Assembly (NCBI GenBank): GCA_014727815.1 | Contig: WJMS01000160.1 | Location: 1-35,760, forward strand | Length of the DNA stretch: 35,760 nt | Direction of reading: 5' to 3' | From: a candidate division GN15 bacterium | GTDB taxonomy: Bacteria > Zixibacteria > MSB-5A5 > GN15 > FEB-12 | In this document: positions 3,926-28,907 of the stretch, one piece after another | How positions within the stretch are numbered: the first letter of the stretch is position 1 | Layout: every line of letters begins with the position of its first letter | Program-made: the position numbers and the translations under genes | Notes under the pieces: generated by a model | The model's database searches: none | The model's input: only the letters and a program-made list of their open reading frames with translations | What the model was told of the DNA's origin: nothing

Positions 3926-3951
3926 ACGGGCCGTTCAGCGCGGCCCGTTTC
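3926..3951 (+). terminator. Intrinsic terminator after SDR-DUF427
   Basis: ACGGGCCG (3926-3933) pairs with CGGCCCGT (3941-3948) around a 7-nt loop, followed by TTCTATATT. The stem is 8 bp and G+C-rich with a short, imperfect T-tract. It lies 36 nt past the DUF427 stop. Confidence 0.65.
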
Positions 3952-3996: not shown

Positions 3997-4090
3997 TAAA
4001 AAACGTCCCGAGCCGGGGGGGAGGGGAACGGCACGGGACGGAAGAGCAGCCAGTTGTCGGATCCCGAAGCAGTGCCGGCTGCTACTTACG
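3997..4090 (-). ncRNA. Candidate small RNA (~94 nt) with C-rich terminator loop
   Basis: On the minus strand a promoter (4097-4125) leads into a short transcript ending at an intrinsic terminator. Hairpin 1 pairs GCAGCCGG (4082-4075) with CTGGCTGC (4053-4046), with one G-U pair, and has an inner TCGG-GAT-CCGA stem (4067-4057). Hairpin 2 is the terminator: CGTCCCG/CGGGACG (4040-4034 with 4010-4004), a T-T mismatch, GCCG/CGGC, and a 13-nt loop TTCCCCTCCCCCC, followed by TTTTTT (4003-3998). C-rich loops in known bacterial regulatory RNAs pair with Shine-Dalgarno sequences; this loop is complementary to GGGGAGGGG-type sites. The overlapping ORF (3964-4287) has no protein-like composition. Promoter, structure and terminator are seen; the regulatory role is inference. 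Confidence 0.65.
3998..4040 (-). terminator. Intrinsic terminator of the small RNA
   Basis: On the minus strand this is a 7-bp stem, a 1x1 mismatch, a 4-bp stem and a 13-nt pyrimidine loop, followed immediately by six T residues and ATTAAT. It is one of the most canonical terminators in the window, and no minus-strand protein gene lies upstream for it to serve. Confidence 0.8.
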
Positions 4091-4096
4091 GTAACC

Positions 4097-4125
4097 ATAA
4101 TAATACCTAATAAGTTTCCTGTCCA
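4097..4125 (-). promoter_or_regulatory. Strong sigma70-type promoter driving the small RNA
   Basis: On the minus strand TGGACA (4125-4120) and TATTAT (4102-4097) are separated by exactly 17 nt. Both hexamers match the consensus at five of six positions. The predicted start is about 4090. The region upstream is A/T-rich with runs of T and A, which could act as an UP element. Confidence 0.65.
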
Positions 4126-4364
4126 TAGCGATTCGCTAACATTTTTCAAAAAATCGAAGCGTCTTTCCCTCCAAGAGCGTAAGTTATCCACGATTAAGGA
4201 GTTGATCGCCCACAACGGTCGGCGAAGGGGTGGCTCCGCCGAAAATGTCGGACTGGCCTTGTCTAACTTTTGCCAGCTTCGGTCCAAGCTGCAGCGGGTG
4301 TCGATCGGATTGGCTGAGGATTTATCGAGGTTTTTCTGAATCGGATTTACTATATTGGGATCAA
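4126..4364. other. Intergenic region between small RNA and sigma factor
   Basis: These 239 bases separate the divergent small-RNA promoter from the sigma factor gene. An A/T-rich patch (ATTTTTCAAAAAAT) lies near 4140-4155. TATATT at 4351-4356 is a plausible -10 element just 8 nt before the sigma ATG, but I cannot find a convincing -35 at normal spacing. No credible coding sequence is seen; the 5' extension of the track ORF (from 4230) is Cys/Ser/Trp-rich and lacks a start context. Confidence 0.5.
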
Positions 4365-4976
4365 ATGAGTGAAGCAGAGATTGTAAAACGGGCGCAAGCC
4401 GGTGATTTCGAGGCCTTTACTGAGTTGGTAAACGCCCATAAGGACAAGCTTTACGCGTTTGTCCGCAAGCTCACCGGCGACCCCGACGACACCAATGATA
4501 TCGTCCAGGACACGTTCCTGAAGGCGATCGACAAGATCGACCAGTTTCGTGGCGAAGCATCGTTTGGTACCTGGCTGACCAGTATTGCGCTCAATCAGGC
4601 GCGGGCCCTTTTTGCCAAGCGCAAGCAGGGCGAGATGAAGCCGATCGAGGCGTACCTGCCGGTTGGGGCGACCAACGGTGAGCATCCGCTCGCCGAGGCA
4701 TCGCTGTTCGACTGGGAAGACCCGCTGGCCAATCTGGAGCGGGCGGAGATCGGGCGCCTGATCGAGGAAGGCCTGGAAACCATACCGTTTGCATACCGAG
4801 AGGCGTTTTTGCTGCGTTATGTCGAGGAGATGTCGGTCAAAGAAGTCGCTGCCACGATCGGGCAGACTGTGGCCGCTACCAAGTCTCGGATCCTGCGGGC
4901 TCGACTGGCACTCAGAGACTTCCTCTCCAAACGGTTCGAGGCAAAGTATGGCGAAAAAGTGCGAAGAATTCATTAG
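4365..4976 (+). CDS. ECF-type RNA polymerase sigma factor
   Basis: The 203-residue protein has sigma region 2 at about 20-88 (DKLYAFVRKLTGDPDDTNDIVQDTFLKA, then FRGEASFGTWLTSIALN) and region 4 at about 130-190 (IPFAYREAFLLRYVEEMSVKEVA with a helix-turn-helix). There is no region 1 or 3, as in ECF/group IV sigma factors, which redirect RNA polymerase in response to envelope or other stress. The ATG at 4365 gives the usual N-terminus (MSEAEIVKRAQAGDFEAF); the track start at 4230 adds 45 implausible residues. Its 3' end overlaps the anti-sigma gene by 29 nt. The following envelope transport operon is a possible target, by position only. Confidence 0.92.
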   Translation: MSEAEIVKRAQAGDFEAFTELVNAHKDKLYAFVRKLTGDPDDTNDIVQDTFLKAIDKIDQFRGEASFGTWLTSIALNQARALFAKRKQGEMKPIEAYLPVGATNGEHPLAEASLFDWEDPLANLERAEIGRLIEEGLETIPFAYREAFLLRYVEEMSVKEVAATIGQTVAATKSRILRARLALRDFLSKRFEAKYGEKVRRIH

Positions 4977-5199
4977 CGGTCTGGCCGACTATATCGATGG
5001 GGAGATCGAGCCGGAGCTGTGCGAAGAGATCGAGAAGCATATCGGCCAGTGTAACAACTGCCGGATCATGGTCGATAGTCTCCGGCAGACGGTTCGTTTG
5101 TGCCGTGAAGGCAAAGAAGAGAAACTGCCTCCGGCGCTGGAGGAGAAGCTTACGGGTATGCTCAAGAAGCGCTGGAAAGAAAAGTTCGGGCAGGCTTGA
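4948..5199 (+). CDS. Zinc-finger anti-sigma factor (zf-HC2 type)
   Basis: The 83-residue product begins MAKKCEEFISGLADYIDGE and carries the HxxxCxxC signature (HIGQCNNC, about 31-38) of zinc-binding anti-sigma domains, preceded by a conserved Cys at position 5. Such proteins bind and silence their cognate sigma factor, often in a redox- or zinc-sensitive way. It has no transmembrane segment, so it is a soluble anti-sigma factor. The C-terminal part is charged and helical (EEKLTGMLKKRWKEKF). The start ATG lies inside the sigma gene, a coupling typical for sigma/anti-sigma pairs. The track ORF start (4789) is a frame extension into the sigma gene. Confidence 0.88.
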   Translation: MAKKCEEFISGLADYIDGEIEPELCEEIEKHIGQCNNCRIMVDSLRQTVRLCREGKEEKLPPALEEKLTGMLKKRWKEKFGQA

Positions 5200-12103: not shown

Positions 12104-13015
12104 CTATTCCGGACAGTCTGGTGACGCGCCGCCCATGAAGAGAGCCGACACCAGGTGGATGACATCGGGAAGGTCGACCTCTCCGCCCGGGGAACCATCG
12201 ACATTCATCATCGGCAGGAAGACCGGTTCGGGGCCACCGAGAAAGAGATACCCGACCAATCCGATCACGTCGGAAAGATCAACATTGTCGTCACCGTTGA
12301 AGTCGCCACAGGTGACATCGTGCACGCGAATCAGGCCGTCGTACACCTTCAGTTGAGTCGTGTCGATCCGAAGCACTTCGGACTGGACGATTTCGATCGA
12401 GTCATACGGCGGAATGCTCACCCGCTCCCAGTCGACACAGACATCGTCGATGTACTGCACACATCGCCAGTAGCTGGTGTCGGGTACAGTGTCAACATAT
12501 GTTCCAAGGTACTCGCCGCCGAGCCCGATTAGCTTGAAGAAGGACGGACTGGAGTCGATCAACTCCAGCCTGAGTGAGTCGACCAGTGTGGTATCCGGCA
12601 ACTCGTAGGCATCAAACTCAAGATAAAAGGCCGGTTGTGGCCAGGTGCCGGGGTGAAACAGGATGCCGATCGGGTTGATCGGGTCGCCCAGATACAGGCG
12701 AACATCGGTACCGTCATCGGCAATCGAATAAATCAGTTGCAGACCGGTCCAGCCATCGAGGCGCGTGCCGGCAGTCTCAATCTCCGTACGAAGCGAGCAC
12801 AAGTCGGGCCTCGAAAGCCGGTACCAGAGTTCGCTGTGGATGATTGGATCATCGTAGTTTTCGATATAGACCGGTAAGAGCGCCTGCTCGGCTCCGGCGC
12901 GAACATTGATAGTATCAAGACGCAGGCGGACAATAGGTTCCTGAGCGAATGCATCGGCGATGGCGCCAAAGGCCAGCAGCGTCAGAACCGCGATAAAAAG
13001 CGTACACGAGCGCAT
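12104..13015 (-). CDS. Secreted dockerin-type EF-hand protein
   Basis: A 303-residue protein with a signal peptide (to about ADAFAQ, residue 25). The N-terminal two thirds is beta-strand-rich, resembling the cohesin/immunoglobulin-like modules seen beside dockerins (for example VRLRLDTINVRAGAEQALLP and WPQPAFYLEFDAYEL). The C-terminus from about 240 holds two calcium-binding repeats, GDFNGDDNVDLSDVIGLVGY and NVDGSPGGEVDLPDVIHLVS, i.e. dockerin type I. Outside cellulosomes such domains probably serve as calcium-dependent surface anchoring or protein-protein modules. GGGGAG lies 7 nt before the ATG; it is complementary to the loop of the small RNA at 3997-4090. Confidence 0.82.
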   Translation of the reverse strand: MRSCTLFIAVLTLLAFGAIADAFAQEPIVRLRLDTINVRAGAEQALLPVYIENYDDPIIHSELWYRLSRPDLCSLRTEIETAGTRLDGWTGLQLIYSIADDGTDVRLYLGDPINPIGILFHPGTWPQPAFYLEFDAYELPDTTLVDSLRLELIDSSPSFFKLIGLGGEYLGTYVDTVPDTSYWRCVQYIDDVCVDWERVSIPPYDSIEIVQSEVLRIDTTQLKVYDGLIRVHDVTCGDFNGDDNVDLSDVIGLVGYLFLGGPEPVFLPMMNVDGSPGGEVDLPDVIHLVSALFMGGASPDCPE

Positions 13016-28220: not shown

Positions 28221-28742
28221 CTACTTCATGTGCTTGCTGACCAGCTTGGTCATCTCGAACATGGAGACCTTCCGCTTGCCGCCGAACAGCGCCTTGAGCT
28301 TGTCGTCGGCATTGATCATCCGCTTGTTGACCGAGTCCTGGAGGCCGTGACGCTTGATGTAGGCCCACAGTTTCTTGGTCACTTCCGTACGCGGCATGGC
28401 CTTGCCACCGACCACCTGGCTCAGGGTGTCGGAGAGCTCCATCGGGCGCATGAAGGCCGGGTTCGGTTTACGCTTGGTGGCGCTTTTTTTGCGGGTGGTT
28501 TTCTTGCGGGTGGTCTTGCGCCCGGTCGCCTTGCGGGTTGTCTTGCGCGCGGTCGACTTCTTGGCTGCTTTTTTCCGCGTCGTCTTCTTGGCGGCTTTCT
28601 TCTTTGTCGCCTTCTTCGCGGTTTTCTTCTTCGCCGTCTTCTTCTTGGCGGCCTTCTTCGGCGTCTTCTTCTTCGCGGCCTTCTTGGTTGTCTTCTTCTT
28701 GGCCGCCTTCTTGGTCGTCTTCTTCTTCTTCGCGACTGCCAT
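28221..28742 (-). CDS. Histone H1-like / SWIB domain fusion protein
   Basis: From ATG 28742 (AAAGGAG 6 nt upstream) the product has 173 residues. Residues 1-95 are almost purely Lys/Ala/Thr/Arg in repeating KKAAKKKT-type units, like the histone H1 C-terminal tail and bacterial Hc1/AlgP-like proteins, and would bind DNA without specificity. Residues about 95-173 form a SWIB/MDM2-type domain (PNPAFMRPMELSDTLSQVVG, then KKLWAYIKRHGLQD, and MFEMTKLVSKHMK). SWIB domains with lysine-rich tails are known in Chlamydiae and some other bacteria and are thought to act in nucleoid structure or chromatin-like regulation. The antisense long ORF is a composition artefact. Confidence 0.9.
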   Translation of the reverse strand: MAVAKKKKTTKKAAKKKTTKKAAKKKTPKKAAKKKTAKKKTAKKATKKKAAKKTTRKKAAKKSTARKTTRKATGRKTTRKKTTRKKSATKRKPNPAFMRPMELSDTLSQVVGGKAMPRTEVTKKLWAYIKRHGLQDSVNKRMINADDKLKALFGGKRKVSMFEMTKLVSKHMK

Positions 28743-28907
28743 GTGTTGCTCCTTTAGCATTGAGGGTTGCCTATGAACATTGCGCCTATGATTACCACCC
28801 TTGTTGACGAGGCCCGCGCGGCTGGTTGTCATGCGTCGGTATTCTCGTCCCTGGGGAAAATTACCACCGTGCGTTTTTTTTTAGCAAGGAAAAATATGGT
28901 CTGACGG

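Follow-up and report, generated by a model that had tools for sequence, protein, structure and literature searches.

A short intergenic interval in the genome of a candidate division GN15 bacterium (Zixibacteria) raises the question of whether it encodes a regulatory RNA and, if so, which factor might drive such an RNA and which messages it might control. By the window we mean the whole stretch of DNA that was analysed, 35,760 nt of contig WJMS01000160.1 (assembly GCA_014727815.1). An initial annotation, made from the letters alone, had proposed a putative small RNA (sRNA) on the minus strand, led by a sigma-70 promoter and bearing a C-rich loop able to pair with ribosome binding sites (RBSs). 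Comparison with related genomes confirms that a gene for a small regulatory RNA lies in the window, much as that annotation had suggested: it stands free, both of its hairpins covary, and its C-rich terminator loop is conserved. Gene architecture, structure, loop conservation, promoter type and distribution are all established by this comparison, and we detail them in turn before considering what the RNA may do.

Architecture and fold of the RNA gene

The two hairpins and the canonical terminator with six T residues that had been read from this interval are all present on the minus strand (4095-3997; Table 1). Folding of the 95-nt strand returns two hairpins at -40.4 kcal/mol (z = -4.3), a stability equalled by none of the shuffled sequences, and leaves the terminator loop unpaired. 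The predicted RNA is about 88 nt long, with a start near 4086 that is deduced from the usual promoter spacing. A coding gene was considered and rejected: no frame is conserved, the longest ATG open reading frame (ORF) that closes within the RNA spans at most 13 codons in 58 of the 60 copies described below, and copy lengths range from 78 to 107 nt. The conserved coding frame that the initial annotation had named among the threats to its proposal is thus not found.

Table 1. Features of the RNA locus and of other genes discussed in the text (window coordinates).
Feature	Position	Strand	Remarks
DUF427 gene	ends 3890	+	flanks the RNA element on one side
Conserved sRNA part	3997..4083	-	model R1, 80.4 bits
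5' hairpin P1	4045..4083	-	from the fold; AGCAGCCGG (4083-4075) pairs with CTGGCTGCT (4053-4045)
Terminator hairpin	4005..4039	-	GTCCCGTGCCG (4039-4029) pairs with CGGCTCGGGAC (4015-4005)
C-rich terminator loop UUCCCCUCCCCCC	4016..4028	-	proposed antisense seed; complement GGGGGGAGGGGAA
U6 tail, intrinsic terminator	3998..4003	-	follows the stem
-35 element GGAAAC, conserved ECF-type promoter	4114..4119	-	motif shared by relatives
-10 core GTT, ECF-type promoter	4093..4095	-	N18 from GGAAAC
Sigma-70-like hexamers TGGACA (4125-4120)-N17-TATTAT (4102-4097)	4097..4125	-	10/12 matches
ECF sigma gene, family F2	4365..4976	+	conserved divergent neighbour; SigW and RpoE-type sigma factors nearest among solved structures
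zf-HC2 anti-sigma-like gene	4948..5199	+	same operon as the adjacent ECF sigma gene
Secreted dockerin-like protein	12104-13015	-	signal-peptide-like start; RBS GGGGAG, six bases match the loop
Leader of OMP-like candidate gene			sequence GGAGGGAGGGTGTCATG

Conservation, covariation and distribution

A DNA search of 40 relatives recovered the whole RNA in two congeners, where identity is 93-94%; its matches in further genera cover chiefly the terminator hairpin and its loop. Inspection of the matched places in those genera revealed complete homologues, including three in tandem in one genome (G011) and three in another (G017). Fifteen copies were aligned with MAFFT, unfitted to any structure model, and a covariance model was built from the result. 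In this alignment 97.1% of cells are paired, 9 of 17 pairs have changed on both sides, and 27 compensatory cells are seen vs 7.9 in shuffles; the covariation score is 0.452 vs 0.23 and was reached by none of 500 shuffles. Searching 133 genomes of the phylum with the covariance model, a check that the initial annotation had called for, returned about 60 copies. They lie in 42 of the 55 genomes that share a GTDB family with the window's genome, whereas the 78 genomes from the rest of the phylum, among them 26 from the order's other families, have none. Across the 60 copies, double changes occur in 16 of 17 pairs (all six modelled pairs of P1, where 97% of cells are paired, and 10 of 11 in the terminator hairpin), with 118 compensatory cells against 26.5 expected. 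The 15-copy test is nonetheless the cleaner one, because the 60-copy alignment was fitted to the model.

Stems and loop are both conserved in relatives, where their absence had been offered as grounds for abandoning the proposal, and they are conserved differently. The loop of P1 differs between groups and the stem bases vary with compensation, while the CCUCCCC core of the terminator loop is kept in 56 of 60 copies. The terminator loop varies less than its own stem does, which suggests that the loop is where the molecule acts.

With respect to known families, the window is without a match to the Rfam covariance models at their gathering scores, the best sub-threshold hits on the RNA's strand reaching 15.9 bits (Lambda_thermo) and 13.2 bits (sX5), and an Rfam scan of five relatives' loci returned a tRNA and nothing else. 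The RNA is thus, by sequence, a member of no curated family. Most of the named records in which the motif occurs are Candidatus Zixiibacteriota or metagenome-assembled genomes. Pattern matches in Phenylobacterium, Nonomuraea, Sphingobium, Salinispora, Arthrobacter and Gemmatimonadota were discarded as chance, because the model either missed them or matched them in part, with no more than 14.3 bits. By these searches, the RNA is the founder of a previously undescribed family, spread across one family of the little-studied Zixibacteria.

The loci also bear on two explanations that would dispense with an independent RNA. The gene that often converges on the RNA, on the side opposite its divergent neighbour, looks like an asparaginyl-tRNA synthetase gene, and adjacency to a convergent gene in many loci is what a strong terminator between convergent genes, with no sRNA at all, would predict. 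We regard that explanation as extremely unlikely, as the U-tract lies on the minus strand only (a bidirectional terminator was rejected for want of a U-tract on the other strand), the plus-strand gene has a terminator-like site of its own (3926-3948), and the promoter motif and the covarying second hairpin are co-conserved, each tandem copy having both hairpins. A cis element, be it an attenuator, a riboswitch or the 5' leader of a downstream gene, would account for the small two-hairpin unit with its terminator, which is the shape of many riboswitch expression platforms. It is nevertheless very improbable, and largely refuted by orientation, the next gene lying on the opposite strand and converging in most loci; the lack of an Rfam match also speaks against it. 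An independent RNA gene remains our reading in what follows.

An ECF-type promoter

The hexamers of the sigma-70 promoter first proposed for the RNA do exist, in a scanned region of 900 nt where 0.7 promoter-like sites of any kind are expected, yet what relatives conserve is an overlapping promoter of the extracytoplasmic function (ECF) sigma type instead. TATTAT reads TATCTT in both congeners and the hexamer pair is unkept in other relatives; the sigma-70 reading is probably wrong. Upstream of the copies, GAA(A)C-N17/18-GTT occurs in 28 of 60 cases against a null of 0.86 +/- 0.99 (maximum 5), a count made in the same sequences from which the motif was derived, and in several further copies GTA replaces GTT. 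The upstream regions share little beyond this motif, and its distance to P1 varies between groups, which fits a promoter rather than a part of the RNA. The window itself has GGAAAC-N18-GTT, the core GAAAC being one base off GGAAC. We conclude that the predicted promoter of the RNA is ECF-type and of the stress kind.

Corynebacterial SigH recognises GGAAT/C-N18-19-GTT (PMC10012870), and the promoters of the RNA copies agree with what is expected of a SigH/SigR (ECF12-type) regulon. The window's own genome encodes 17 genes with sigma region 2, and the SigH/SigR-like one among them, at 309-902 of contig C181, has GGAAC-N18-GTT before its start. The solved structure nearest to its product is that of M. 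tuberculosis SigH (5zx2, E 7.5e-44), its top NCBIfam match is SigH_actino (192 bits, below the cut-off of 251.55), and the product of the following gene resembles the anti-sigma factor RsrA (50 bits, below the cut-off of 62.5). In 29 of 30 genomes the SigH/SigR-like gene carries GGGAAC-N18-GTT before itself at a near-fixed distance, and as these orthologues carry the same promoter they lend the RNA's motif the support of an independent set. A SigH/SigR-like gene is found in 37 of the 42 RNA-bearing genomes. The assignment is insecure, because the other five, one of them near-complete, have no match at E 1e-40, and because another ECF gene (L210) also carries a promoter of this type (GGAAC-N17-GTT). 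On balance a SigH/SigR-like factor is likely, if not proven, to drive the RNA.

Genomic neighbourhood

A second candidate driver is the ECF sigma gene next to the RNA, which heads a cluster in the order sigma, zf-HC2, MMPL transporter, LolA-like, outer-membrane protein, F3 and murQ. The RNA is divergent from this gene in about 17-19 loci, and in about 14 others a gene of family F3 is the adjacent divergent one. Presence of the adjacent sigma gene is weakly associated with presence of the RNA (31/42 vs 5/13, p = 0.04), which together with the divergent arrangement would suit a variant of our reading in which this factor, in place of the SigH/SigR-like one, drives the RNA. We hold that variant to be somewhat unlikely. 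Orthologues of the adjacent gene occur in 36 of 55 genomes, and the RNA is still present in 11 of the remaining 19, four of these 11 (G016, G057, G059 and G065) showing a GAA(A)C-N18/19-GTT/GTA promoter; moreover, the gene's own upstream region is without the strict motif. The adjacent sigma factor is thus a neighbour and perhaps not the driver, and a SigH/SigR-like factor remains the preferred candidate.

Several further observations concern the surroundings of the RNA copies. In the window (4340-4365) and in L055, L058, L060, L067, L070, L078 and L097, the adjacent ECF sigma gene lacks a Shine-Dalgarno sequence, and a TATAAT/TATACT-like box stands about 10 nt ahead of its ATG. A box so close to the ATG, with no Shine-Dalgarno sequence, suggests leaderless mRNAs, which an RBS-blocking RNA could not touch. 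A second line of RNA paralogues, seen at L075, L089, L092, L093, L094, L095 and L101, mostly adjoins a gene for a PAS-domain/LuxR-type regulator (F10). Of the nine copies in this line, seven carry paired TACGTA/TACGCA boxes, spaced 11-12 nt apart and located 58-136 nt ahead of the RNA, two such boxes being found in none of the 51 other copies; the line looks rewired to the PAS-LuxR regulator in place of the ECF promoter. Elsewhere in the window, a minus-strand gene (28221-28832) encodes a protein with a lysine/alanine-rich repetitive N-terminus and a C-terminus that we take to be of the SWIB/MDM2 type.

Candidate targets

Hfq (PF17209) was found in none of the 55 genomes of the GTDB family, in a search whose control was positive in 5 of 14 reference genomes. 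The loop could block the RBSs of mRNAs, perhaps above all where these encode secreted or outer-membrane proteins. In three genomes of the genus, GGGAGGG stands 2-9 nt before an ATG 47, 68 and 68 times, vs 22, 30 and 30 for the reversed pattern. Among the 46 such genes that passed one ORF filter, 28 start in a signal-peptide-like manner vs 44 of 154 controls, which are further genes of these genomes (odds 3.9, p = 8e-5 by a simple hydropathy and cleavage-motif rule made for this analysis). Predicted duplexes between the loop and the RBSs of candidates range from -15.6 to -28.8 kcal/mol vs -9.5 for a generic AAGGAGG site. An OMP_b-brl-like gene keeps GGAGGGAGGG before its ATG in all three congeners, and a GGGAGGG site is kept in two congeners before an amidohydrolase gene, a lipoprotein-like gene, a gene for a weakly lectin-like secreted protein, an ABC-2 permease gene and others.

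The excess of GGGAGGG over its reversed control is no greater in the genus than in order members without the RNA, and since it is equally large there the sites are not present on the RNA's account. In those RNA-less genomes, too few to serve as a firm control, a signal-peptide-like start is seen in 5 of 14 GGGAGGG genes, a share statistically indistinguishable from that in the genus (p = 0.14). For both reasons, the secreted and envelope class of targets is best treated as a lead.

Other candidates fared less well. The dockerin gene that the initial annotation had singled out has the RBS described (GGGGAG-AAGTCGT-ATG, ATG at 13015, minus strand), yet its standing as a target falls, as it offers six complementary bases and its motif is not enriched, occurring once in the window vs 3.4 times expected by chance. 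The exact 9-mer GGGGAGGGG yielded about 30 sites per genome, mostly away from starts and unconcentrated at RBSs, with no conserved target; as the pattern reads the same when reversed, the reversed control says nothing about it. The outer-membrane protein of the ECF operon (F4) was rejected as a conserved target, having a G-rich RBS in about half of the loci yet AAGTGAG in genus g4.

The constancy of the loop could also reflect a protein-binding site, the RNA being a sponge or a protein cofactor rather than an antisense regulator, and the multi-copy arrays would fit a sponge as well. This is improbable in our estimation, as the loop is complementary to GGGAGGG RBSs, the similar C-rich loops of sX13, RepG and LhrC base-pair, and CsrA, the best known regulator that is sponged by RNA, binds GGA rather than C-runs.

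A proposed mechanism

Taken as a whole, the RNA is probably a trans-acting, Hfq-independent, stress-induced antisense sRNA whose loop would block G-rich RBSs, and this is the best explanation overall; transcription, the sigma factor, pairing, repression and the envelope targets are what we infer. Under thiol or envelope stress the RNA would be made by RNA polymerase carrying an ECF sigma factor, of which the SigH/SigR-like one is the most likely. Its stable terminator hairpin would present the C-rich loop as a single strand, which may pair through at least 7 bp with G-rich RBSs (GGGAGGG), block ribosome entry and lower translation of the mRNA without Hfq. Because the genus's candidate targets lean towards secreted proteins, lipoproteins and outer-membrane proteins, stress would be expected to bring a reduced flow of envelope proteins. 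In the genomes where copies stand in tandem, they may provide a higher dose or diversified targets. In a wider and doubtful form of the proposal, which we offer tentatively, the RNA would have evolved separately into an Hfq-free equivalent of the sigma-E sRNAs of enterobacteria: made with an ECF factor of the SigH/SigR kind, it would reduce the translation of secreted and outer-membrane proteins as one class through their GGGAGGG RBSs, and the second paralogue line would have been rewired to PAS-LuxR control through the paired TACGTA boxes.

Comparison with known systems

A brief literature search yielded no relevant account of small RNAs in Zixibacteria, and this may thus be the phylum's first regulatory RNA family with covariation support. 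C-rich terminator loops are known from Helicobacter, Xanthomonas, Listeria and Staphylococcus. The present data suggest that such a loop has been fixed throughout a bacterial family with no detected Hfq and that it is tied to an ECF stress promoter, and the covariance model, the candidate sigma factor and the list of candidate targets make Hfq-less sRNA action testable in a new lineage.

Among sRNAs under ECF control, the enterobacterial MicA and RybB are sigma-E dependent and act on the mRNAs of outer-membrane proteins with the help of Hfq, through a seed at the 5' end and with no C-rich terminator loop. The Zixibacteria RNA shares with them an ECF-sigma promoter and, as proposed here only, action on outer-membrane mRNAs; it differs in their Hfq dependence, in the place of their seed and in its loop.

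Closer parallels lie elsewhere. In Xanthomonas, sX13 has stable stems and apical C-rich loops and, independently of Hfq, represses mRNAs with G-rich motifs near their start sites (PMC3771888). Like the Zixibacteria RNA it is short and intergenic, one of its loops containing UCCCCCU, whereas it has three C-rich loops in place of one, and the part of its description consulted here notes no ECF-type promoter (PMC3771888); the Rfam search indicates no homology between the two. RepG of Helicobacter pylori pairs through a C/U-rich terminator loop with G-repeats in an mRNA leader (PMC8295292). Its terminator loop is likewise the pairing site, a role proposed for the Zixibacteria RNA, yet its known target is a length-variable homopolymeric G-repeat of one operon, in an unrelated phylum (PMC8295292). 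Listeria LhrC1-5 are multicopy, partly clustered and stress-induced, and bind Shine-Dalgarno regions through UCCC motifs, with a cell-wall adhesin among their targets (PMC4132741). The Zixibacteria RNAs resemble them in copy number, partial clustering and C-rich motifs that would face Shine-Dalgarno regions, and differ in that LhrC is under LisRK two-component control with three pairing motifs per RNA (PMC4132741). What the Zixibacteria RNA has in common with all three is, by sequence, a free-standing gene with an intrinsic terminator and a conserved single-stranded C-rich loop (56/60 copies). The best reading of this anatomy is that it works as sX13, RepG and LhrC do, and represents a new family of a known mechanistic kind.
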